IMG/VR virus record: IMGVR_UViG_3300026483_000880
Span: 1-39,220 of that record
Direction: 5' to 3' (one strand)
Length of the DNA stretch: 39,220 nt
Source: a virus
This document shows positions 12,748-38,530 of this stretch, piece by piece. The position numbers were made by a program, and so were the translations under genes. The notes under the pieces were generated by a model that saw only the letters and a program-made list of their open reading frames with translations, did not search any database and was not told the origin of the DNA. The first letter of the stretch is position 1. Each line of letters begins with the position of its first letter.

Positions 12748-13122
12748 TTAAGATAAACTAAAACTCTGTATATTTAAACTATCATTAAATTCTTTCTCTT
12801 CTTGTTTTTCCCATTTACTAGTTTCAACTCTATCATGAACTGAAATAGGAGCATCTGATGGGAATCTTGAATCTGATGTGTAGATAAAATTACCACCAGC
12901 CATAGAGTGTCTTCCACTTTTAAATAATCCTGCAGGAACTGCGTAATTAGATTGTTTTCCAAATATTGTTCTTTCAACGAGTATCAACTCATCATCTGGA
13001 ATTAAGTCAGTTTGTAAATTTTGTCCATAGTGAAGAATAATGCTATCTTCTCTAGAAGTTAAACCATTGTTTGTACAATCACCTAGTGAATTTCTTAGTA
13101 CGAATGTTAAAATTGTGTCCAT
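12748..13122 (-). CDS. Small conserved phage protein, copy A (124 aa; paralogue at 36197)
   Basis: Start set at 13122 (MDTILTFVLRNSLGD) because the paralogue at 36197 begins at the same point (MSNILTFVLRNSMGD) and the upstream extension would run through a terminator. Both share the core SREDSIILHYG, LIPDDEL.LVER, YAVPAGL and SDSRFPS.AP..VHDRVE. Copy A has a longer acidic tail (KWEKQEEKEF). The fold is unknown, though the short conserved motifs suggest a compact beta-rich domain. It is preceded by the same type of promoter as its paralogue. Confidence 0.75.
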   Translation of the reverse strand: MDTILTFVLRNSLGDCTNNGLTSREDSIILHYGQNLQTDLIPDDELILVERTIFGKQSNYAVPAGLFKSGRHSMAGGNFIYTSDSRFPSDAPISVHDRVETSKWEKQEEKEFNDSLNIQSFSLS

Positions 13123-13158
13123 CTCTATTTGTTTTTTAATTATACTACTAATATACCA
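13123..13158 (-). promoter_or_regulatory. Promoter-like element shared with the paralogue
   Basis: On the minus strand, T-run, then GGTATATTAGTAGTATAATT, then A-rich leader before the start at 13122. It matches in order and spacing the conserved elements at 29875-29940 and 36118-36183 (T-run, CTTATATTAGTA, GTAATAAT). TATATTAG resembles the Bacteroidetes TAnnTTTG box. Confidence 0.5.
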
Positions 13159-13161
13159 AAA

Positions 13162-13191
13162 AAAAGCCAAATAAAAAAATATTTGGCTTTT
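13162..13191 (-). terminator. Rho-independent terminator
   Basis: Perfect 12-bp stem AAAAGCCAAATA / TATTTGGCTTTT with an A-rich loop and T-runs, located just after the stop of the 13216-15231 gene. Confidence 0.8.
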
Positions 13192-16112: not shown

Positions 16113-16859
16113 TTAAATATTTTTTAAATTATTTACAAGCCAGTCTAATTCTACTTGACTACCTGAATCTGAGATGGCATTTTCAGGATCTGGGTGTGTT
16201 TCAACGAACACTCCATCATATTCAAATATACGAGCTGCTTGAGAATATTGCTTTGCCAATTTACGACTTCCTCCTGTAATACCGTCACCTGCCATTTGAG
16301 TAGAGTGTGTACAATCAAAGATAACTTTGTCTGCAAATTCTTTCATTACATCAACACCTCTAAAATCTACAATTAATCTATCATATCCAAAGTTAGAACC
16401 TCTTTCAGTAAGCCAAACTTGACAATTAGGATTTACTTCTTTAATTTTAGTAACAGCATGTTTCATAGCATCTGCCGATAACCACTGTCCTTTCTTAACA
16501 TTAATAGTATTGAAATGTTTTGCACACTCTACTAATAGATCTGTTTGTCTACATAAGAATGCTGGAATTTGAATTACATCTACCACATCAGATAATGGTA
16601 ATGCTTGACTTGTTTCATGAATGTCAGTAACTATTTTAATATCAGGAAATCTATCTTTGACATTTCTCATAATATTAATACCTTCGTCCAAACCTGGACC
16701 TCTATTAGAGTGAATTGAAGTTCTATTAGCTTTATCGAAACTGCCTTTAAGATACCAATCTTTTCCATTCATTAATGGATAAAGTGTTTCAGCAACTAAC
16801 ATGAAGTTGTCCTCGTTCTCAATACTACAAGGACCTAGTATGTATGTGTAATCTTGCAT
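16113..16859 (-). CDS. kdsA: 3-deoxy-D-manno-octulosonate 8-phosphate synthase (KDO-8-P synthase)
   Basis: Condenses phosphoenolpyruvate with arabinose 5-phosphate, the first step to KDO of lipopolysaccharide, in the cytosol. Family motifs appear in order: GPCSIEN, KGSFDKANRTSIHSNRGPG, VTDIHE, IQIPAFLCRQTDLL, NVKKGQ, TERGSNFGYDRLIVDFRG, FDCTHSTQ and FVETHPDPENAISD. The Cys in GPCSIE and the downstream His, Glu and Asp are those of the metal-dependent class (as in Aquifex). The protein is 248 residues, some 20-35 shorter than usual, missing mainly the C-terminal helix. It stands alone between unrelated phage genes, so it is probably an acquired host-type gene. Together with the phosphomannomutase and RmlD-like genes it suggests phage control of host surface sugars. 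Confidence 0.93.
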   Translation of the reverse strand: MQDYTYILGPCSIENEDNFMLVAETLYPLMNGKDWYLKGSFDKANRTSIHSNRGPGLDEGINIMRNVKDRFPDIKIVTDIHETSQALPLSDVVDVIQIPAFLCRQTDLLVECAKHFNTINVKKGQWLSADAMKHAVTKIKEVNPNCQVWLTERGSNFGYDRLIVDFRGVDVMKEFADKVIFDCTHSTQMAGDGITGGSRKLAKQYSQAARIFEYDGVFVETHPDPENAISDSGSQVELDWLVNNLKNI

Positions 16860-20685: not shown

Positions 20686-21078
20686 TTATATATCACCCAT
20701 ATATTTATCTCTAACTCTACTACTGACAGAAATTGCTTCACCTTGTTCGTCTACTCTTACAAATTTAATATGTGTTGCAAGTATAATGCCTTGTTTACCG
20801 TTGTATACATTATGTGATCTTGCTTCAACTTTTAGGGTGACAGATGAGTTTCCTATTGTTTCTACTTCACCGTATATTTTAAGGAGATGTCCTTCTTTTG
20901 CTGGTTTTTTAAAAACACATTTATCTATGAGAACTGTTACCATTCTTGGTGTATCGCATACTTGGGAAGCATATGCAGCTCCCGCTGCGTCAACCCATGC
21001 TAATAATTTTCCACCAAAAAGATTGCCATGAAATCCCAAGTCGGACTTCTTGACCGGATGCGTACTTATTAACTCCAT
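20686..21078 (-). CDS. Hotdog-fold acyl-CoA thioesterase, copy A
   Basis: 130 residues with the YciA/ACOT-like signature GFHGNLFGGKLLAWVDAAGAAYA, then VTVLIDKCVFKKPAKEGHLLKIYG and SVTLKVEARSHNVYNGKQ. The Asp in WVDAAG is the expected catalytic residue. It would hydrolyse acyl-CoA in the cytosol. A second copy of about 80% identity lies at 35119 on the other strand; copies differ mostly in the C-terminal third. Which acyl chain is used cannot be told. It abuts the lipoprotein gene upstream (adjacent start and stop), so it is in an operon with envelope proteins. Confidence 0.9.
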   Translation of the reverse strand: MELISTHPVKKSDLGFHGNLFGGKLLAWVDAAGAAYASQVCDTPRMVTVLIDKCVFKKPAKEGHLLKIYGEVETIGNSSVTLKVEARSHNVYNGKQGIILATHIKFVRVDEQGEAISVSSRVRDKYMGDI

Positions 21079-22042: not shown

Positions 22043-22483
22043 CTATTTTAGAGATTTCTCGATAGCTTTCTTGATTGCAGACGCAAATACTGTCTTATTA
22101 AAAGGTAAGTTCTCATCTTGTAAATCGATGAATGTAGCTTTAACTGTAGATTTAGCCATTCCTTCAACTTCAATTACATTATCATCCATATAGATTAGTA
22201 AAGTGACTATTGTTTTTTTACTCACTTTAGTCCACGGTCCTATCGATATTCCAGTCGTTGGTGCTTCTATTGAAGTTACTTTAACTTCAACTGGCTTACC
22301 ATCTAAACATAAATCATACTTGTCTGAAATAACATCTTCCATCATTTGTTTAATACCAAATGTAATTCTTCTTTGGCTGATCTCTTCCATTTCAACTTCT
22401 GTTGTTACATTCTTAACAGTATAACAATCTTGTGCGAATAACATAGTTGGAATTAAGAATAGGAGTATTAATAGCTTTTTCAT
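22043..22483 (-). CDS. Exported small protein following the putative OMP (146 aa)
   Basis: Start placed at 22483, giving MKKLLILLFLIPTMLFA as a good signal peptide with cut before QDCYT; a start 7 codons earlier is less likely. The mature protein is about 128 residues with two Cys, a repeated strand pattern (VEVKVTSIEAPTTGISIGPWTKVSKKTIVTLLIYMDDNVIEVEGMAKSTV) and a C-terminal amphipathic helix (FASAIKKAIEKSLK), which resembles the end of CsgG/lipoprotein-type outer-membrane assembly subunits (AIKKAI). Its start overlaps the end of the upstream gene by 1 base. A periplasmic partner of the CsgG-like protein is the working idea. Confidence 0.65.
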   Translation of the reverse strand: MKKLLILLFLIPTMLFAQDCYTVKNVTTEVEMEEISQRRITFGIKQMMEDVISDKYDLCLDGKPVEVKVTSIEAPTTGISIGPWTKVSKKTIVTLLIYMDDNVIEVEGMAKSTVKATFIDLQDENLPFNKTVFASAIKKAIEKSLK

Positions 22484-22484
22484 A

Positions 22485-23855
22485 TTAGAATCTAATTTTA
22501 CCACCAGTTAGTATTTGATAGTTGAGGGCATTTCCACCTGATTGCCAAACTCCAGTAAAACTGATATTGTATTTGAATGTTTTTGTAATTTGTATATCCC
22601 AAGAACTAAATGGAACTATAAGAACACCTGGATCCCACCATTGACCTTCATAGTATTGTGTGAATGGAGAATAGACTCCTAGAATTAAAGCCGATGTTGT
22701 AATCTTTGGACTAACTCTAAAGTTTCTATGAACTCCAGTAACTGCTGATAGATTTTGTAGTTCTCTTTTACCTAATTTACCTATAGTAAAATTTAAACCA
22801 GCCATTCCAGTGAATTTCTTCTTACCAAACTTAAATGATTCTAAAACAGTAGTTGTGTTTAAATGATTTTGATTAAAATTAGTCATTGTAGTATTTGCAC
22901 CTACTAAATTAAATGTTCTATTCGGATTGATCCATGATTTATAGAAAGTTAAACTAAAATCATTAGTTACAGTTGTATATGTAAATAGTGCTCCTTGAAC
23001 TCTGCTCTTTTTTGTATTAGCACTAGTAATAGAACCTACTACTTTTACTTGACGTCCATTTGAGTTATCTTGGTTGTCAATAACTACAATATCGCCTGAT
23101 GCAATTAAAGAACCTCTGTTTTTATTATCTGATTCTCCACCATCAACTGCATTTGAAATAGAATTAGCTAAAGACATACCTAATCCGCCTTCTTTTGATT
23201 CATCTTCTGTTTTTGTTTCAGCGCTACCTGTTGAAGTGCCACCTCCACCTGTATTACTTTGTTCATTACTAGTTTGATTAGAACCAGAGCCATTAGATTG
23301 TTCCGAACTAGACTCTGAATTACTATTCTCATTATTTTTATTATCGGAACTATTAGATTCACTATTAGAATCTTCAGATTCTTTATTAGAGTTAGAACTT
23401 TGTTCTCCTGATTTCTTCTTTTTCTTTTTCTTCTTCTTTTTGTTTGCATTATCAATAGCCTCTGCTACTGGAACACCTGATGATGAAAGTGCTTGTGGTA
23501 ACATATCTCCACCTAACACATTCATTATATTTGTAATTACTGTAATAGTATTTTGAACTATTATAGCATTTGTATTATTTGTAATAGCTTGAGTAACGCT
23601 TTGACATGGATTCGCAGAATTAGCCTGAGTAACTAAATTCATCCATGCATCAAAAGTACCATCTGTAAAATCTGGTTGTGTAAATGTCTGAACATTGCCA
23701 AAATAATTTAAGGCAATCTCATCACTTGAACCCATTTGAATTGTTTGTTGATTCAGAGTACATGGATCTGTAAACGTATAAGACCACTGGCCATAACTGA
23801 CTAGTGGTGCTAAGAATAACAGAACTGTTATTATTTTATTCTTCAAATATCCCAC
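22485..23855 (-). CDS. Putative outer-membrane protein with poly-Lys and Ser/Asn-rich linker (456 aa)
   Basis: Signal peptide MGYLKNKIITVLLFLAPLVSYG, then a domain to about 130 (FTDPCTLNQQTIQMGS...FDAWMNLVTQ), a run of ten or more Lys at about 138-148, and a Ser/Asn/Glu/Gly-rich linker to about 215. The last 200 residues have alternating strand character and end with a terminal aromatic (LTGGKIRF), typical of a Bacteroidetes outer-membrane beta-barrel. It overlaps the CsgG-like gene by 20 bases and couples with it. Its function is not recognised; a channel or secretion accessory is plausible. Confidence 0.65.
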   Translation of the reverse strand: MGYLKNKIITVLLFLAPLVSYGQWSYTFTDPCTLNQQTIQMGSSDEIALNYFGNVQTFTQPDFTDGTFDAWMNLVTQANSANPCQSVTQAITNNTNAIIVQNTITVITNIMNVLGGDMLPQALSSSGVPVAEAIDNANKKKKKKKKKKSGEQSSNSNKESEDSNSESNSSDNKNNENSNSESSSEQSNGSGSNQTSNEQSNTGGGGTSTGSAETKTEDESKEGGLGMSLANSISNAVDGGESDNKNRGSLIASGDIVVIDNQDNSNGRQVKVVGSITSANTKKSRVQGALFTYTTVTNDFSLTFYKSWINPNRTFNLVGANTTMTNFNQNHLNTTTVLESFKFGKKKFTGMAGLNFTIGKLGKRELQNLSAVTGVHRNFRVSPKITTSALILGVYSPFTQYYEGQWWDPGVLIVPFSSWDIQITKTFKYNISFTGVWQSGGNALNYQILTGGKIRF

Positions 23856-24540
23856 GCTTTATCATTCTTTTTACGATACGAGCAGTTCCAGATTCTAGGG
23901 CTTTCTTAGTTGCAATACCAATTGTTGATTGATTGAATTTGACAACATTGTCTTCACCAATCTTTGATCTTTTAATCGTGACTGCTTCACCACTTCCACT
24001 GCCTGTGAAAATAGTTCCAGTTTCAGCATTAACAAATCTTACTTGCATACCAATAATAGTTTTTAGTACAGTCTTTACTCCATCAACTGTAACTTCTTCT
24101 TCCTCAGATACTGAATAGTCATATATTTCTACATATACAAAATACTCTGCTAACACAACATTACCTACAACTTTAATATCATTTGCCGATATACCTTTTG
24201 CTGCAGCTTTATGTTGCTTAACCATTCTCTGTTTGATTTCTTCTTTATCTTCTGTAAATAGAAATCTATCTGTCCATTCTAAATAAGACAGAGTAATATT
24301 ACTAACACCTAAACCAACTCTATTCTCTCTCAATTCTGGATAGAATTCATATAGTTCTGGTGTAAAGCCTATATTTAATACTTGAATAGGCAATTGATAA
24401 TCTAACATATAGTCAGATACCTCATCGATGTCTGCTTTTTGTTCAAAACTAGCTTTATAGTCTTCAGTCTCAGTTTTACCTATTTGAGCATTAACTGTAA
24501 AGGTAACTAACAAAAAGACCAGTGTAAATAATCTTACCAT
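23836..24540 (-). CDS. CsgG-family-like exported protein (234 aa)
   Basis: Signal peptide MVRLFTLVFLLVTFTVNA. The body shows CsgG/HfaB-type features: a regulated strand-helix pattern, VVLAEYFVYVEIYDYS, MQVRFVNAETGTIFTGSGSG (the family pattern of VR.VdA.TG.i...g.G.g), and STIGIATKKALESGTARIVKRM at the end (G.A...A...a). CsgG forms an outer-membrane secretion pore for curli fibres. Here the N-terminal lipid Cys of typical CsgG is missing, so it would not be lipidated. The neighbours are an exported beta-barrel and small exported proteins, which supports a secretion or assembly complex. Confidence in the family is moderate. Confidence 0.6.
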   Translation of the reverse strand: MVRLFTLVFLLVTFTVNAQIGKTETEDYKASFEQKADIDEVSDYMLDYQLPIQVLNIGFTPELYEFYPELRENRVGLGVSNITLSYLEWTDRFLFTEDKEEIKQRMVKQHKAAAKGISANDIKVVGNVVLAEYFVYVEIYDYSVSEEEEVTVDGVKTVLKTIIGMQVRFVNAETGTIFTGSGSGEAVTIKRSKIGEDNVVKFNQSTIGIATKKALESGTARIVKRMIKRGIFEE

Positions 24541-24797
24541 GTTATTTCGTCTTCTTTCTTTTCTTTAACAATCACTTTTGGTGCTTCCTTCTTTTCCACT
24601 ATATTATTAATAATAATTTGTGGTTGAGCCGGAATACTATCTTGTACTACAACTGGAGTAGGTTCCTTTTTTGGAGATAACCAACCTTCCATGTTAGTAA
24701 TAAAGATACCAAACCCAGCGGCGATGACTAAGCCAACGCCGGCAATGATTTGATTTTTAATTTCAGAAAAGAATTTGTTTTCTTTTTTATCTGACAT
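24534..24797 (-). CDS. Single-helix membrane protein with Pro/Lys-rich outer part (87 aa)
   Basis: Short cytosolic start (SDKKENKFFSEI), one membrane helix (about 17-36, IIAGVGLVIAAGFGIFITNM), and a periplasmic linker rich in Pro, Val and Lys (PTPVVVQDSIPAQPQ; VEKKEAPKVIVKEKKED). This TonB-like linker could span the periplasm. Its end overlaps the CsgG-like gene by 7 bases. It may energise or anchor the secretion set; this is inference. Confidence 0.6.
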   Translation of the reverse strand: MSDKKENKFFSEIKNQIIAGVGLVIAAGFGIFITNMEGWLSPKKEPTPVVVQDSIPAQPQIIINNIVEKKEAPKVIVKEKKEDEITW

Positions 24798-24802
24798 TCT
24801 TC

Positions 24803-24994
24803 TTAGTTTATTTTTAATGTACTAAGTATTATATAAGTTACTAATGTAAATAGTAGACCATTCATGATCTTCTCATCAGCTTCTTTTTGTGTTAGTACTT
24901 TTTTCTCGCAACATCCATCTGAAGTAGGCTTTGTAGCTCCACATCCAAATAGTAGTATTGAACTTAACGACAGTGCAATCATCTTCTTTCTCAT
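24803..24994 (-). CDS. Tiny lipoprotein with C-terminal helix (63 aa)
   Basis: MRKKMIALSLSSILLFGC is a lipoprotein signal (lipobox LFGC, Cys18). It is followed by GATKPTSDGCCEKKV and a second hydrophobic stretch (LLFTLVTYIILSTLKI), so it may be tied to the membrane at both ends. This is the style of o-spanins and small lysis or exclusion lipoproteins, but the neighbours suggest an envelope complex part. Confidence 0.62.
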   Translation of the reverse strand: MRKKMIALSLSSILLFGCGATKPTSDGCCEKKVLTQKEADEKIMNGLLFTLVTYIILSTLKIN

Positions 24995-25001
24995 TATTAA
25001 G

Positions 25002-25739
25002 TTATTTTTTTATGGTTTTAAATGTTTTAACAAATTGGCCATTAGTAACTTGTAAGAGATAAACACCTTGTGGTAATGAAGATAGATCCATTTGAAATTG
25101 TACCCATCCTGCAAAGAATCTTTTACTTTCTTTTAAAAATTCTGAACCATTATAGTTTAATACTCTGACAATATAATCGCCATTGTCTGGTACTGTCAGG
25201 TCAAATGTAATTGGACCTTTTGTTGGAACTGGATAAACAATTCCATAAATACCATCAGTTGGCCTAGTATCAAATGGCATTGATCGTTTATTCACATAGC
25301 CATCTGTGTTTTCAACATCAATATCCCATCCTAATTCTGTGCCAGCTGTTTTTCTACCAATCGTAATTGGAATTGTGTCCCAATCTTGATTAGTAACCCT
25401 AAATCTTACCGTAAATAATTCTGTTGTATTAATTATAGTAAAATTACCGAAGGAAGCGTCATAACCGCCCCATCTAACAGTTTCACCTTCCCAGTCCATA
25501 GTATATGTTAACCACTCTTGAGCTTTAGGTGTCACAGTAATCGATACAAACTCTAAATAGTCTGGATCATAGTTCAATGCAAATTCTAAACTACCAACAT
25601 CTTCGCCTGAAGTTTCAATTTCTACAGGCAGATTAATAAACTCACTTACAGGCACATCAATCTCAGGTACGTTAAATACGACCTGAGATTGTGCACATGT
25701 GGTGAACAATACTAATATTGTTAGTAGTATATTCCTCAT
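25002..25739 (-). CDS. Secreted cohesin-like protein with T9SS type-A sorting tail (245 aa)
   Basis: Signal peptide MRNILLTILVLFTTCAQS. Residues about 20-125 look like a cohesin beta-sandwich (VPVSEFINLPVEI; VGSLEFALNYDPDYLEFVSI; TTELFTVRFRV), the domain that binds dockerins. The last 75 residues have the T9SS sorting-tail plan (YPVPTKGPITFDL...YIVRVLNYNGSEF...SLPQGVYLLQVTNGQFVKTFKTIKK). So it should be exported by Sec and then by the host type IX system to the surface. Its gene starts 1 base from the end of the cohesin/dockerin-like gene. A surface receptor for dockerin-bearing partners is inferred. Confidence 0.78.
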   Translation of the reverse strand: MRNILLTILVLFTTCAQSQVVFNVPEIDVPVSEFINLPVEIETSGEDVGSLEFALNYDPDYLEFVSITVTPKAQEWLTYTMDWEGETVRWGGYDASFGNFTIINTTELFTVRFRVTNQDWDTIPITIGRKTAGTELGWDIDVENTDGYVNKRSMPFDTRPTDGIYGIVYPVPTKGPITFDLTVPDNGDYIVRVLNYNGSEFLKESKRFFAGWVQFQMDLSSLPQGVYLLQVTNGQFVKTFKTIKK

Positions 25740-25740
25740 A

Positions 25741-26835
25741 TTAATTTAAACCTGTACCGTTGGCATCACCTAATATTAATAGGTAGAAATTACCAGTGGT
25801 AGTTCCATTAATTTGTGGAGATAAAAATACTGATAGTCCTGGAATTGAACTTGACTGATCTGAACTTGAAGCATTAATAGTATTATATTGTGCTTCAGTA
25901 AAGAATAATACATCTGGATTAGAAGCGTAACTTGAGTTACCTTGTGCTAATCTAGAGAATACTAAGTAAGAATCCGATGCTGTAATTCCAGTAGCTTGAT
26001 TTGGATTTGCAGTATAGAACTGAATACCAGAAGCTGATTGTACTCCCGCAACAATTTGTGCGATCATATTAGCATCTGCAGTTGATAGTGCTGCACTTGC
26101 ATCTAGTCCACTTGCAATCTTAAGTCTAATTTGCCAGTAAGATTGGTCTAAGCTTTCTGAGAATGTTGCTGTTCCATCTGCTGCCGTTGTTACTGTAGTT
26201 ACATCTGTCCAAGTATTTCCATCTGATGATTTCTGTAAAATCACAGGAATAGATTCAGCTGGATTTGTTCCACTATTTAAGATAGTTGCTACATAATCAA
26301 ACACAGGTTCTATAAAGTTACCACCATTATCTTGTGTACCTAGAGCTCCATCTGTTCCATCAGCCTTTACATAATAAGCAGTAAGATTAGTAGTAAAATC
26401 TACGTCAGCAACTGCTCCGTTTGTGTAATTTGATAGAAAAGGTGCGTTTACTGTAAACATATTACCAGCAATCATATCGAAAGTGGTAGATGCTCCAGTA
26501 TAAACCCATACTACTTTTACTACTCCGTTTGTTGAATCAACGTCATACGACAAATATCCAACTGGGCCAGATGTATTGTTATATGCTACTGTTGGTTCAT
26601 CAAATACTGTGTTATCATAATTAAACGAAAACTGAATACCTTTAACTGCATTACCAGACGTGTTATCATAGTAAATATCAAACTCAGTGTTTGAGCTCGA
26701 ACCAGTAGATTCTAAAGTGTACGTTGAATCAAAAATAACATAAGGCTTTGTTGCATCAGGCGCAGTCGTCTGCCCGAAGACAGTCATTGTACTGATAGCT
26801 AAAGCCAGTGTTAGAAGAATGTTTTTTAATTTCAT
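25741..26835 (-). CDS. Exported protein with cohesin-like and dockerin-like parts (364 aa)
   Basis: Signal peptide MKLKNILLTLALAISTMTVFG. Residues about 35-150 have a cohesin-like pattern (VKGIQFSFNYDNTVFDEPTV; GVVKVVWVY). The C-terminal half has one helix-type dockerin-like stretch (LSTADANMIAQIVAGV; GITASDSYLVFSRLAQGN, about 250-300). The protein ends LILGDANGTGLN, which looks like the first calcium loop of a dockerin cut short, so it may be truncated or have lost its tail. No T9SS tail is present. It sits between the PA14 protein and the cohesin-T9SS protein in one operon, so the three may bind one another. Confidence 0.65.
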   Translation of the reverse strand: MKLKNILLTLALAISTMTVFGQTTAPDATKPYVIFDSTYTLESTGSSSNTEFDIYYDNTSGNAVKGIQFSFNYDNTVFDEPTVAYNNTSGPVGYLSYDVDSTNGVVKVVWVYTGASTTFDMIAGNMFTVNAPFLSNYTNGAVADVDFTTNLTAYYVKADGTDGALGTQDNGGNFIEPVFDYVATILNSGTNPAESIPVILQKSSDGNTWTDVTTVTTAADGTATFSESLDQSYWQIRLKIASGLDASAALSTADANMIAQIVAGVQSASGIQFYTANPNQATGITASDSYLVFSRLAQGNSSYASNPDVLFFTEAQYNTINASSSDQSSSIPGLSVFLSPQINGTTTGNFYLLILGDANGTGLN

Positions 26836-26852
26836 TTGTTTTTAATTTTTTT

Positions 26853-28049
26853 TTAGTTTTTATGACCCGCTCTTATTACATAGAAAGTTGTTTGATTTCC
26901 ATTGGCTAAATCAAAGAGGGACCATGCTCCGTAACCGGAGAGTTGTGATTTGTCATCTGAATCCGCAGCAACTGCCGGCCAAATGGTCGGGTTTTGCCAG
27001 GAATTTGTGTTCCATATTTCTTGTCCTCCACCAGGGTAACTGGAAATGTTACCTTGTCTCTTCTGGTGCATTAGATAAATGTCAGAGGCAGAAAATGAAC
27101 CTGTATTATTTACATCAAGTCTCCAATAATCTTTAGAACTAACTGTATCTGATAGTAATCTGTCTTGAAACCAGTTAATATCTGAAGTTGTAAGCGTTCC
27201 TATTGTCGGAATGATGTCTATTGTAAAATCGTAATCGTTGTAATTTAACGTAGTATTAAATGAATAATATCCATTTGAATCTGTTGTTGTAGTGGCTTGT
27301 GTTGTATATGAGAAACCTACTTGGTTTTTATTCTGTGTCTTTAGGTAAACTGTTTGTCCTACAATACCTTGTTCTTCTGCTCCTTTAATATACCCACTTG
27401 CCGTGATAGGTACTGCGTTAGGATCTGTAGAAGTCCATTCTGCAAATGGATGACTGGGACTGAGTTGATTAAATTGACCTGTATTATAGTTAGCGGGTAT
27501 TTCATATTGAAAATTTGCAGCACCTATACCACCAAAATTTTGAATTCTATATTCAAACTCATACCATACAGTTTTATCTAGGGTTGCCGTACCATAAGCC
27601 CATGTATTCCAACCATAATGTTTAGTAACTATATCATTAGTCTTACCAATACCTTTAATCATAAACTCATGTGAGTCATCTGTGAAAGTTCTAAATCGAT
27701 ATGTACCTGATTTGTTAGGTTTAAACCAACCGGAATAGATAATTGCATATCTTTGACTGCCCCATCTTGGTGGATTCCATAGTTGATAAGGAGTATGATT
27801 ACCACCTCTTGGGCCTTGGTAACTTGTTATATCTATAGGTCCCCATGTATAGAGTGTAGTACCGCCATCGGCAAGATTAACCATAGCGTCAAATTCTGAA
27901 TGCGAGTTAGCATTACCTGTATAATATTGACCTGATTGATTCCCACCATAGTGAGTCTTAAGTGACTTTAAGTTTACTGTAGTAGTTTGTGCATGGACGA
28001 TAGGCATCGCCAAGATAAAACACAAGAGGAATAATTTGAAGTACTTCAT
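26853..28049 (-). CDS. Exported PA14-like/dockerin-like protein (398 aa)
   Basis: Signal peptide MKYFKLFLLCFILAMPIVHA. Residues about 70-185 match a PA14 carbohydrate-binding sandwich (YSGWFKPNKSGTYRFRTFTD; WYEFEYRIQNFGG). About 217-280 resembles a carboxypeptidase-regulatory-like Ig domain (GYIKGAEEQGIVGQTVYLKT; TTTDSNGYYSFNT). Residues about 285-334 are dockerin-like (TTSDINWFQDRLLSD; RLDVNNTGSFSASDIYLMHQ). It is the first gene of the leftward envelope operon, just after the divergent promoter region. A surface-displayed sugar-binding partner for the cohesin-like proteins is inferred. No T9SS tail is seen. Confidence 0.72.
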   Translation of the reverse strand: MKYFKLFLLCFILAMPIVHAQTTTVNLKSLKTHYGGNQSGQYYTGNANSHSEFDAMVNLADGGTTLYTWGPIDITSYQGPRGGNHTPYQLWNPPRWGSQRYAIIYSGWFKPNKSGTYRFRTFTDDSHEFMIKGIGKTNDIVTKHYGWNTWAYGTATLDKTVWYEFEYRIQNFGGIGAANFQYEIPANYNTGQFNQLSPSHPFAEWTSTDPNAVPITASGYIKGAEEQGIVGQTVYLKTQNKNQVGFSYTTQATTTTDSNGYYSFNTTLNYNDYDFTIDIIPTIGTLTTSDINWFQDRLLSDTVSSKDYWRLDVNNTGSFSASDIYLMHQKRQGNISSYPGGGQEIWNTNSWQNPTIWPAVAADSDDKSQLSGYGAWSLFDLANGNQTTFYVIRAGHKN

Positions 28050-28217: not shown

Positions 28218-29495
28218 ATGCTGAAATACTCAATGATAGCCTTTCTGGGGCTTTTTCTAGTTACTAGCGCATATGCGCAAACTTGTGATTTAACACTCAT
28301 AAGTCAAACACCACCTGTCACAACAGAAGATGACCATTCTTTTGTAATTGAATTTGTTAATGCAGAAAACTGTGGATGTAATGAATTTACTCAGTGGGAT
28401 GAAAATACTTGCGATGGCAATGGATCTAGTTCCGTAAATAATAATGAAAATGTATCTCATCTTGTTTTTGGTATTCATTATGTAAATGAAATCACTGGAG
28501 AAGACTTAGGAGAAAACACAGATTGTACTTCTACAACATTTCATCCAGGTTGGTCATATACTAATGTTACAAATTGGGGTGGTTGGGAAACTGGCGATGT
28601 TGTTACTATTAATATAAATCCACCATTTGCTTGGGAATGTATTTTAGCCACACCTCTTGAGGGATATTGTTGGGAAGTAGTAATTTGGCAAATTAATTTA
28701 TCACAAACGGCAGGTTATGATGATTTTCCAGATAATGGATGGACTGTTGGCAATAGTTTTAATCAGACACAGACATATCCTGATATTAATATAGATGATA
28801 ATAGAATAGCTGTTTGCTACGATCCTTGTGTACCTGACACTATAATCGAATACATTACTGATACGATTTACATAGAAACTATCGATACCCTTTATGTAAC
28901 TAATACTATTATTGAATATGTAGACAATTTTATTACTGATACTCTTTATGTAGAAACCATTGACACGGTATACGTTGATGTTGAAGTTTTCGTTGAGGTT
29001 TTTATCACCGATACTATTACTGAAATTGAGTACATTACAGAATATGTTACTGACACTCTTTTTATTACAACTGTCGATACAGTTGAAGTTATTGTATATG
29101 AATTCTTAACAGATACGGTTTATGAGTATATTTCTATTGATTGTGAAACTGGATTAGAATGTATTGATGATCCTGGATTAACTTGCCCAGATTGGACTTC
29201 AGTTTATCTTCCAAATACATTTACACCAAATAATGATGGTTTAAATGATACATGGCAAATGGTTTATGATTTAGAATGTTGGGTCGATGTAGAATTTAAA
29301 ATATTTAATAGATGGGGTGACATGATCTATTCAGGTATGGGTGATTATTACGATTCATATCCTTATTGGGATGGAAGTGTAAATGGTGGTAATCACTATG
29401 CATCTGATGGCGTTTACACATATACGTTCTACGCAAGAAAATTAAACTCAACCGAAATCTTTCAAAGACACGGACATATAACAATATTTAGATAA
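28218..29495 (+). CDS. T9SS type-B surface protein (gliding-motility C-terminal domain), 425 aa
   Basis: Signal peptide MLKYSMIAFLGLFLVTSAYA, a Cys- and Trp-rich N-terminal domain to about 195, and a stalk of Asp-Thr repeats (DTIYIETIDTLYV; FITDTLYVETIDTVYV) of the type seen in Bacteroidetes surface proteins. The last 95 residues match the gliding-motility-associated/type-B sorting domain (LPNTFTPNNDGLND; FKIFNRWGDMIY; DGVYTYTFYARK; RHGHITIFR). The protein should be exported by the host type IX system and held on the surface. It is followed after 1 base by a dockerin-like gene, suggesting a shared job. Host origin is likely. Confidence 0.88.
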   Translation: MLKYSMIAFLGLFLVTSAYAQTCDLTLISQTPPVTTEDDHSFVIEFVNAENCGCNEFTQWDENTCDGNGSSSVNNNENVSHLVFGIHYVNEITGEDLGENTDCTSTTFHPGWSYTNVTNWGGWETGDVVTININPPFAWECILATPLEGYCWEVVIWQINLSQTAGYDDFPDNGWTVGNSFNQTQTYPDINIDDNRIAVCYDPCVPDTIIEYITDTIYIETIDTLYVTNTIIEYVDNFITDTLYVETIDTVYVDVEVFVEVFITDTITEIEYITEYVTDTLFITTVDTVEVIVYEFLTDTVYEYISIDCETGLECIDDPGLTCPDWTSVYLPNTFTPNNDGLNDTWQMVYDLECWVDVEFKIFNRWGDMIYSGMGDYYDSYPYWDGSVNGGNHYASDGVYTYTFYARKLNSTEIFQRHGHITIFR

Positions 29496-29496
29496 C

Positions 29497-29862
29497 ATGA
29501 AATCATTACTTATTTCCTTATTATTTCTTTTACCATTTTACACAGTAGCACAATGCAATCAACATGTTTTTTCCTCAGTCGGAGCTGAGAAATGGACTAA
29601 CTTCCAATATCAAGACTGTGATGGATGGAATCATTACTTTGGTCTTCCCGCTGGAGGATATACTATAATCTTTTGTGCAGATATTGGCACCGCTTTTGTT
29701 TTAAATGGGGATGGATTTGTATTTCCTTTGGCGAATGAACACCCCAATTACGCTTCCTGTATTCAACCAGAAACTGAATGTGAAGGTGATTTTGATGGAG
29801 ATGGAATAGTAGGAGCAGAGGATCTTCTTACCTTTTTATCAAACTACGGTATGTGTGAATAA
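29497..29862 (+). CDS. Small exported protein with dockerin-like C-terminus (121 aa)
   Basis: Signal peptide MKSLLISLLFLLPFYTVA. The middle is Cys/Trp/Gly-rich (KWTNFQYQDCDGWNHYFGLPAGGY). The end, DFDGDGIVGAEDLLTFLSNYG, is a single calcium-loop-plus-helix of the dockerin type I pattern (DxDxDGxVxxxDLxxxxxxxG); a full dockerin has two such units. It could bind the cohesin-like protein at 25002 or a host partner. It is co-transcribed with the type-B surface protein. Confidence 0.72.
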   Translation: MKSLLISLLFLLPFYTVAQCNQHVFSSVGAEKWTNFQYQDCDGWNHYFGLPAGGYTIIFCADIGTAFVLNGDGFVFPLANEHPNYASCIQPETECEGDFDGDGIVGAEDLLTFLSNYGMCE

Positions 29863-35012: not shown

Positions 35013-35117
35013 ATGACAGATCCTGAAGACGAATACGACGACATTGAAAATACCGAATATGATGGTATATCAATAAACAAACCCACTGAATATAACGATG
35101 ACGATTATGACTACTGA
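35013..35117 (+). CDS. Tiny acidic protein (34 aa)
   Basis: MTDPEDEYDDIENTEYDG then SINKPTEYNDDDYDY: very acidic, no Arg, tyrosine-rich. It ends 1 base before the thioesterase start, so it is probably a translated leader or coupled mini-gene. Might mimic DNA, though that is speculation. Confidence 0.4.
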   Translation: MTDPEDEYDDIENTEYDGISINKPTEYNDDDYDY

Positions 35118-35118
35118 T

Positions 35119-35517
35119 ATGGAATTAATATCAACACATCCAGTAAAAAAATCAGACCTGGGTTTTCACGGAAATCTTTTTGGAGGTAAATTATTAGCAT
35201 GGGTAGATGCAGCTGGAGCTTCTTATGCTTCACAAGTATGTGATACTCCTCGAATGGTAACCGTTCTTATAGATGAATGTGTTTTTAAAAAACCAGCAAA
35301 GGAAGGACATCTACTAAAAATATATGGAGATGTAAAGAGCATAGGAAGAACGTCAGTCACTCTTTCTATTGAAGCAAGATCACATAATGTATATGACGGA
35401 AGACAAGCTATTATTCTAGCAACCAATATTAAATTTGTTAGAATAGATGAACAAGGAGAAGCTATTCCAGTAGGTCAAAAAGTTAAAGATAAATTTAAAA
35501 AATCAGAACAAAATTAA
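35119..35517 (+). CDS. Hotdog-fold acyl-CoA thioesterase, copy B
   Basis: Start placed at 35119 because it gives MELISTHPVKKSDLGFHGN exactly as in copy A (20686-21078); seven codons upstream are probably not used. Keeps NLFGGKLLAWVDAAGA and the presumed catalytic Asp. Roughly 80% of residues match copy A, with changes concentrated after residue 85. Two closely related copies in one genome on opposite strands point to a recent duplication or two acquisitions; their roles may differ by timing, as their promoters and neighbours differ. Confidence 0.9.
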   Translation: MELISTHPVKKSDLGFHGNLFGGKLLAWVDAAGASYASQVCDTPRMVTVLIDECVFKKPAKEGHLLKIYGDVKSIGRTSVTLSIEARSHNVYDGRQAIILATNIKFVRIDEQGEAIPVGQKVKDKFKKSEQN

Positions 35518-36196: not shown

Positions 36197-36520
36197 ATGT
36201 CAAACATCCTAACATTCGTACTTAGAAACTCTATGGGAGATTCAACAAACAATGGTCTATCTTCAAGAGAAGACTCTATTATTCTGCACTATGGCCCTGA
36301 TGCCGATTTAGCAGATTTAACCTTAATTCCAGATGATGAATTGGTTTTAGTAGAAAGACAGCTATTCGGAAAGGAAGCATGGTATGCAGTTCCTGCCGGA
36401 TTATACAAGAACAATAAACACACAATGTTTGGCGGCAATTTTATTCACACTTCAGACTCAAGATTTCCATCTTCTGCACCAATTGCAGTTCATGACAGAG
36501 TAGAATCTAATAACTATTAA
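36197..36520 (+). CDS. Small conserved phage protein, copy B (107 aa; paralogue at 12748)
   Basis: MSNILTFVLRNSMGD, SSREDSIILHYG, LIPDDELVLVER, YAVPAGLYKN, SDSRFPSSAP and VHDRVES, all shared with copy A on the other strand. It lacks the acidic tail of copy A and carries a short insertion after HYG (PDADLADLT). It lies between the conserved promoter-like element and the ligase gene, 1 base before it, so it is expressed with the ligase. Confidence 0.75.
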   Translation: MSNILTFVLRNSMGDSTNNGLSSREDSIILHYGPDADLADLTLIPDDELVLVERQLFGKEAWYAVPAGLYKNNKHTMFGGNFIHTSDSRFPSSAPIAVHDRVESNNY

Positions 36521-37837: not shown

Positions 37838-38530
37838 ATGACAATAGTTTTAGGAGACGGTTTATTAGCATCAGAACTTATAGGACAAACAGGATGGTCT
37901 TATATTTCAAGAAAACAGGACTTTTTAAATTTTAATAGTCTTAGTAGTGTTATTAATTTAATTCCAAAGGACTGCACTACGATAGTCAATTGCATTGCAT
38001 ACACAGACACCTATTCTGATGATAAATCTAAAATGCTTCAAACTAATTATCATTCAGTTGCAAACTTGGCTGAATTCTGTAATCATAGAGGAATAAAACT
38101 AATTCACTATTCTACAGATTACGTATATGCTGGTTCAAATCCAAATGCAAGCGAAGAAGATATTCCTATTCCTGATAAAACATGGTATGCATATTCTAAA
38201 TTATTAGCAGACGAGCATATCATTAGACATTCAGATGATTATCTAATCGTAAGAGGGAGTCACAGAATTAATCCATTTCCTTATGCAACTGCATGGAACG
38301 ATCAGATAGGAAATTTCGATGATGTAGATGTATTAGTAAATCAGTGGATCAAGCTAATTAAAGCAGAGCAGAAAGGTGTATGGAATATAGGAACACCTTC
38401 GAAGAGCGTATATGAATATGCATCTAGAGAAAAAGATGTTGATTCAGCACCTGCCCCTGATCATTTCCCAAAGGATACGACAATGGATCTTACGAAACTT
38501 AATGTATTTTTAAAAAATTATGAAATATAA
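37838..38530 (+). CDS. RmlD-like NAD(P)-dependent sugar-nucleotide reductase (230 aa)
   Basis: Rossmann start TIVLGDGLLASEL, VNCIAYTDTYSDD and TNYHSVANLAEFC, then catalytic HYSTDYVYAG and WYAYSKLLAD (Tyr117-x-x-x-Lys121), the layout of dTDP-4-dehydrorhamnose reductase and related epimerase-reductases. 230 residues is shorter than the usual 280-300, with the C-terminal substrate domain reduced. It could act on dTDP-rhamnose precursors or a related nucleotide sugar; the exact sugar is not certain. Alongside KdsA and phosphomannomutase it supports surface-sugar modification. Confidence 0.85.
   Translation: MTIVLGDGLLASELIGQTGWSYISRKQDFLNFNSLSSVINLIPKDCTTIVNCIAYTDTYSDDKSKMLQTNYHSVANLAEFCNHRGIKLIHYSTDYVYAGSNPNASEEDIPIPDKTWYAYSKLLADEHIIRHSDDYLIVRGSHRINPFPYATAWNDQIGNFDDVDVLVNQWIKLIKAEQKGVWNIGTPSKSVYEYASREKDVDSAPAPDHFPKDTTMDLTKLNVFLKNYEI

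Follow-up and report, generated by a model that had tools for sequence, protein, structure and literature searches.

Curli-type pores encoded by phages are a recognised puzzle, for which capture of sibling cells, defence against superinfection and lysis have been offered as competing ideas. To our knowledge, such remodelling of the host has been described so far solely for phages of SAR11 and OM43. The 39,220-base virus contig considered here (IMG/VR record IMGVR_UViG_3300026483_000880; its entire length is referred to as the window) encodes, in addition to tail-fibre (collagen-type) and DNA-ligase proteins, a group of genes that the original prediction had described as a CsgG-like secretion-type operon. 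Are these genes a phage unit, how far does the unit extend, and what might it do at the envelope of an infected cell?

Operon layout and phage origin

All five open reading frames between positions 22043 and 24994 were verified and lie on the minus strand (Table 1). Their transcript order is 63-aa lipoprotein, 87-aa single-transmembrane protein (tether), 234-aa CsgG-like protein, 456-aa barrel-type protein and small exported protein. The tether and CsgG-like genes overlap by 7 nt, the CsgG-like and barrel genes by about 20 nt, and the small-protein ATG is located 1 nt past the barrel-gene stop, which bears out the translational coupling originally claimed. The order of the CsgG-like, barrel and small genes is kept across about 100 viral loci, so the arrangement is not a product of chance. 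The 63-aa lipoprotein was not found among relatives and therefore probably lies outside the module. The predicted interval thus contains real genes but is too short, as positions 25002–28049 (minus strand) have to be added to it (see below).

Table 1. Features of the gene set in the window
Positions	Strand	Length (aa)	Feature	Characteristics and evidence
22043..22483	-	146	Exported protein with predicted LptE/PelC/CsgG-superfamily fold	AlphaFold2, Foldseek, VIA
22485..23855	-	456	Exported protein, putative barrel type	Conserved N-terminal domain, linker with poly-Lys, C-terminal outer-membrane beta-barrel-type domain
23836..24540	-	234	CsgG-like protein, non-lipidated in the window, putative outer-membrane pore	hhalign, Foldseek
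24534..24797	-	87	Predicted inner-membrane tether	One N-terminal transmembrane helix, Pro-rich periplasmic stretch, C-terminal ...KKEDEITW
24803..24994	-	63	Predicted lipoprotein with C-terminal transmembrane-like stretch	Window-specific
25002..25739	-		Secreted cohesin with T9SS C-terminal sorting domain, putative surface anchor	PF00963 3e-9, PF18962 3e-8
25741..26835	-		Secreted cohesin-like protein with dockerin-like segment	Ends ...LGDANGTGLN
26853..28049	-		Secreted adhesin	Signal peptide, PA14-like head (about 27-190), CarboxypepD_reg/SdrD_B-like linker, EF-hand/dockerin-like loop

An initial scan of IMG/VR recorded 37 loci at 57–99% identity, an alignment-based scan at least 280 encoding stretches, and the small protein as sole query 128 matches. 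The only named phage with the module is the cultured, T4-like Flavobacterium phage immuto (four records; host Flavobacterium sp. LMO8). Its module, gp013-gp019, includes a lectin-type adhesin (gp013), a cohesin (gp015), the tether (gp016) and the CsgG-like protein (gp017). It adjoins replication and nucleotide genes and is about 28 kb apart from holin and endolysin; terminase, gp20 and gp23 lie at a distance of about 100 kb in the linear record. Of 22 long virus records, 16 have a T4-type major capsid gene that scores over the cut-off. Among bacterial genome assemblies, relatives were detected in only two MAG contigs, one of them with a T4-type capsid gene, and 60 Flavobacteriaceae genomes contained none beyond the known MAG. 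Ordinary housekeeping genes of a host chromosome, which would have spoken against the original prediction, were therefore rejected as an explanation: with at least 280 viral stretches, immuto and the capsid genes on one side and two MAG contigs on the other, the gene set is assigned to phages. The carriers constitute a family of T4-like phages of marine and freshwater Bacteroidetes. T4-type late promoters (TATAAATA) were uninformative about timing, both in immuto and in the window.

A remote CsgG relative

Neither the window record nor hmmscan gave a match to the Pfam CsgG family (PF03783) over the cut-off, and single-sequence and shallow-profile searches for CsgG with the 234-aa protein returned nothing; only the broad CsgG set matched the phage alignments. 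In this profile-profile comparison a deep alignment of 42 phage sequences was set against a broad collection of Bacteroidota PF03783 proteins, signal peptides being removed, and hhalign reported a probability of 78% (E 1.8e-5) over 151 colinear columns of mature sequence; 60 column-shuffled controls reached at most 1.1%. The AlphaFold2 model is poor (pLDDT 51). In Foldseek its first 18 matches, obtained with this low-confidence model, are all CsgG (E 1e-4 to 3e-3), yet VIA places CsgG (Z 7.0-7.2) level with RAD52 and ribosomal S5 and does not separate it from other ring folds. Based on these data, the protein is best regarded as a remote CsgG relative outside the family as presently drawn, with a fold relationship that we grade as moderate, and the CsgG-like character originally noticed is retained at this level. 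The missing lipid Cys was likewise correctly noted for the window protein, which has no lipobox, although some of its 86 distinct relatives carry one (15 by a strict and 22 by a loose definition). The phage CsgG is no recent copy of the host gene.

Putative outer-membrane partners and tether

The mature barrel-type protein starts with QWSYTFTDPC and ends with TGGKIRF. Its N-terminal motif, [YF]-x-[YF]-x-D-P-C-[TS], recurs in 59 of 73 relatives, and the low-complexity linker is conserved in position and variable in sequence. The poly-Lys stretch highlighted in the original prediction is a local quirk, as six or more consecutive Lys are present in only 5 of the 73 distinct relatives. The signal recognised by the BAM machinery in barrel C-termini (beta-signal) follows the pattern zeta-G-x-x-phi-x-phi, which the C-terminus fits in the window and in most relatives. 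We describe the protein as an exported one of the outer-membrane-barrel type, and the barrel with linker as first described persists as a putative one. A CsgF-type CsgG-binding N-terminus, considered for the likeness of YTFTDP to the FxFRNP of CsgF, was not borne out; the profile comparison yielded 0.5% and CsgF had no Pfam match in the operon. Mature sequences were used here because full-length comparisons with CsgF reached 60-80% through the signal peptides alone.

The small partner is exported as predicted, but its start had to be corrected from a GTG giving 153 aa to the ATG at 22483 (MKKLLILLFLIPTMLFAQ...), which gives 146 aa with a signal peptide. Its AlphaFold2 model is confident (pLDDT 82.7) and is matched by VIA to Cj1090c (Z 12.8 over 116 residues), CsgG (Z 10.1) and PelC (Z 9.2); matches by Foldseek and VIA also include PqiC and LptE. 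The modelled structure thereby confidently suggests a fold of the LptE/PelC/PqiC/CsgG-superfamily type. CsgE was not detected in the operon, the profile comparison with the 146-aa protein giving 0.2% and the fold being LptE/PelC-like instead. A match to ribosomal protein S1 (E 8e-5) was discarded; it is limited to 49 residues around an FGIKQ motif, and the predicted fold differs.

For the 87-aa protein, originally termed TonB-like, the TonB C-terminal domain gave no Pfam match, nor did it for immuto gp016. Members of its family have one N-terminal transmembrane helix and a Pro-rich stretch, and the conserved feature is the C-terminal E-E/D-x-W; 76 of 84 distinct loci have an open reading frame with a C-terminal Trp upstream of CsgG. 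We classify the protein as an inner-membrane tether and not as a TonB. The tail E-E/D-[STP]-W is kept in the tethers upstream of CsgG (L001-L196) while the remaining periplasmic part varies freely; it looks like a docking peptide for some partner. As far as sequence features go, the envelope or outer-membrane character claimed for the operon is supported for all its members. In the original reading the genes, the CsgG-like character and the tie to the envelope accordingly stand, whereas the TonB likeness and poly-Lys as a feature have to be abandoned.

Cohesins and variable adhesins

Both domains of the window cohesin score over the Pfam cut-off (Cohesin PF00963 37.6 bits, Por_Secre_tail PF18962 34.1 bits); the corresponding values for the L185 cohesin are 42.0 and 44.3 bits. 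In distant lineages (L028/L031) the two cohesin genes of the window appear as a single protein of 633-643 aa ending in a T9SS sorting domain. Wherever a distinct CsgG locus extends at least 4.2 kb upstream, it encodes the cohesin protein(s) (66 of 66). Of 56 loci whose flanks are long enough, 55 encode a secreted adhesin too, and these adhesins have a dockerin-like/C-terminal domain in common. The link to the cohesin/dockerin genes nearby is hence supported, and we count the cohesin and the dockerin-bearing adhesin as parts of a module larger than the first interval.

The common C-terminal domain ends with FYVIRAGHKN in the window adhesin, whose linker matches SdrD_B (6e-5) and CarboxypepD_reg (1e-4), both below the cut-off. 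Its head appears PA14-like, with 22% identity across the PA14 region of the L024 adhesin (PA14 1e-6 in L024). Scores for Dockerin type I (PF00404) of 12.3, 15.3 and 19.1 bits fall below the cut-off of 22.9, and an EF-hand loop is visible (e.g. DVNNDGRISVSD). Among loci the heads vary between Lectin_C, GEVED, PA14 and Laminin_G_3, and the adhesin gene is found on the upstream side in 15 loci, between CsgG and the small gene in 11 and downstream in 29. Variation of head and position against an otherwise constant set argues for the adhesin as cargo or effector. Sec-type signal peptides are present on adhesins, cohesins, CsgG-like, barrel and small proteins; the T9SS tail is found on the cohesin and is absent from the adhesin. 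The curli-like substrate whose search had been suggested did not emerge, there being no Curlin_rpt match in the operon or the adhesins scanned.

Two further genes follow in the window on the plus strand and are shared with the closest relatives only: a divergently transcribed gene with a CHU_C type IX sorting domain (28218-29495; 1e-13) and a gene for a 121-aa exported protein with an EF-hand/dockerin-like loop at its end (29497-29862).

A scenario for export and display

We propose, with a probability of about 0.5, that the genes specify an export-and-display module which is encoded by the phage, spans the envelope and remodels the surface of the Bacteroidota cell during infection. From gene order, co-occurrence, domain content and the two fold relationships, one confident and one moderate, we infer a scenario for complex formation, export route, timing and purpose. 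All components would exit the cytoplasm via Sec. The CsgG-like protein may then make a ring or pore in the outer membrane, an assembly that would be completed by the LptE/PelC-like protein together with the barrel protein and its long, flexible linker, and onto which the tether might dock through its conserved C-terminus. The complex would export or position the adhesin with its PA14, C-type lectin, GEVED or LamG head, while the T9SS-tailed cohesin might be delivered to and anchored on the surface via the host type IX system and there capture the adhesin by cohesin-dockerin binding. The infected cell would finally show a lectin-headed adhesin, most likely used for holding neighbouring hosts or particles, or for masking the surface. 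The dedicated export or outer-membrane complex of the original prediction is thus favoured in its exporter version, the likely cargo being the dockerin-bearing adhesin and not curli.

In support of the display module, the constant set (outer-membrane ring, outer-membrane partner, inner-membrane tether, cohesin anchor, adhesin) seems to correspond to the needs of an exporter combined with display. By analogy, the distantly related phage HTVC008M pairs a CsgG-type pore with a PA14-headed secreted protein. Against it stand the sub-threshold dockerin scores, the poor CsgG model with its undecided VIA result and the endolysin linkage discussed below; an export-substrate signal was not identified. 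Moreover, no clumping was seen with the phage Melnitz, whose module is of a related kind (PMC9004378). The most detailed version, a phage-only machine in which an inner-membrane-tethered, CsgG-derived exporter and its LptE/PelC-like partner pass interchangeable lectin-headed adhesins to a T9SS-anchored cohesin, is tentative and less probable than display as such. If true, it would, together with the pelagiphage PA14-curlin protein, make the rendering of infected cells adhesive a general strategy of aquatic T4-like phages.

Alternative functions

The main rival to the display module is a lysis or egress apparatus, in which inner-membrane tether, outer-membrane pore and barrel would bridge the envelope and disrupt or gate the outer membrane at the last lysis step, replacing spanins. 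A lysis role was proposed for CsgGF of Melnitz (PMC9004378). In most long records a GH19 endolysin points in this direction, being situated at most 5.5 kb from CsgG in 13 of the 18 that have both (chance expectation 1.7, ignoring kinship), but the records are related and the count therefore overstates the significance. The endolysin arrangements differ (upstream, downstream, opposite strand), and small holin-like genes with two transmembrane helices occur within the operon or next to it at many loci, which also favours lysis. However, the endolysin is about 29 kb or farther away in immuto and four other long records, and the constant cohesin/dockerin adhesins with T9SS tail would be left unexplained. 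On balance we consider lysis unlikely. One two-transmembrane protein of 115-121 aa (LLGAFVGNLNKVVDYWFNSEDRDKMLIQKVDEEDG; L028:6711-7058, L031:5524-5883, and relatives) is found in 26 of 60 loci, at varied positions within the CsgG operon or close to it; it is holin-like in build and has no family match.

Somewhat less probable again is superinfection exclusion, by which ring and surface proteins would mask or block receptors from competing phages. The ring-forming lipoprotein TraT blocks conjugation, and TraT is also matched by the LptE/PelC-like model, but its Z of 7.8 falls inside the background range of the aligner. Swapped lectin heads would suit the masking of varied glycans, and sugar/LPS-type genes are present in the window; an exporter-like set with a tether nevertheless exceeds what masking needs. 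For the curli of pelagiphages, defence against superinfection has been suggested (PMC9599517). The sugar-related genes encode a DAHP_synth_1 family protein resembling KdsA of Kdo synthesis (16113-16859, minus strand; 3e-52) and an RmlD-type sugar reductase (37838-38530, plus strand; 4e-20), and LPS or glycan modification by the phage is possible.

A structural role, with the adhesin/cohesin set decorating the particle and the operon serving virion assembly, is improbable: the variable carbohydrate-binding heads resemble receptor-binding modules and collagen-type tail-fibre genes are at hand in the window, but the Sec-type signal peptides, the T9SS tail of the cohesin and the position of the immuto module, beside replication genes and far from terminase, gp20 and gp23, speak against it. 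A genuine type VIII (curli) system secreting amyloid, as the CsgG relationship and the csgE-csgF-csgG operons of Flavobacteriaceae could suggest, is the least credible proposal, since CsgF, CsgE and curlin repeat were all not found and the phage CsgG does not derive from recent host copying.

Relation to known systems

The T8SS modules of pelagiphages and methylophages (HTVC008M, Melnitz; PMC7029224, PMC9599517, PMC9004378) are also carried by T4-like aquatic phages and share with the window module a CsgG-type pore with exported partners near replication genes and, in HTVC008M, a secreted PA14-headed protein. The canonical CsgF-CsgG operon of HTVC008M ends in this gene, gp018 (NC_020484; L227:10638-11963), with PA14 (3e-6) and curlin repeats (5e-8); the pelagiphage papers searched for the word PA14 do not contain it. 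Two curlin-repeat genes are present in the Melnitz record, and CsgA/B of pelagiphages are already published (PMC9599517). In contrast to the very divergent window protein, CsgG of HTVC008M and Melnitz is canonical (PF03783 5e-53, about 45% identical to host CsgG). Their type brings CsgF, FecR and curlin repeats, whereas the window module lacks CsgF and curlin and has a tether, an outer-membrane barrel-type protein, an LptE/PelC-like protein, cohesin/dockerin and T9SS tails. The window module thus appears to represent a second type of CsgG module in phages, which is very divergent and widespread, belongs to Bacteroidota phages and has partners not described for the first type. Immuto is an isolate with a cultured host, and the second family nearly always comes with an adhesin that has a swappable sugar-binding head; this makes the puzzle of phage curli pores testable by gene deletion.

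Bacterial curli systems (type VIII; csgE-csgF-csgG of Flavobacteriaceae) likewise combine a CsgG-type outer-membrane ring and exported accessory proteins in one operon, but have an amyloid substrate and no inner-membrane tether; moreover, the host CsgG of about 460 aa has a C-terminal extension resembling a fused barrel, which is absent from the phage protein. With the outer-membrane export partners LptE and PelC the similarity of the 146-aa protein lies in the predicted fold, and no LptD or PelB gene was seen beside the phage module. Cellulosomal cohesin-dockerin systems and T9SS surface proteins provide the same cohesin domain, dockerin-like EF-hand loops and Por_Secre_tail; unlike a cellulosome, the set is phage-encoded and carries adhesin heads instead of enzymes. 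Phages may thus have found a use for cohesin-dockerin pairs and for the type IX secretion of their hosts.

The window also contains two closely similar thioesterase genes (4HBT) on opposite strands (20686-21078, minus; 35098-35517, plus). A second duplicated pair (12748-13170, minus; 36197-36520, plus) encodes small proteins sharing ILTFVLRNS(L/M)GD(C/S)TNNGL(T/S)SREDSIILHYG.
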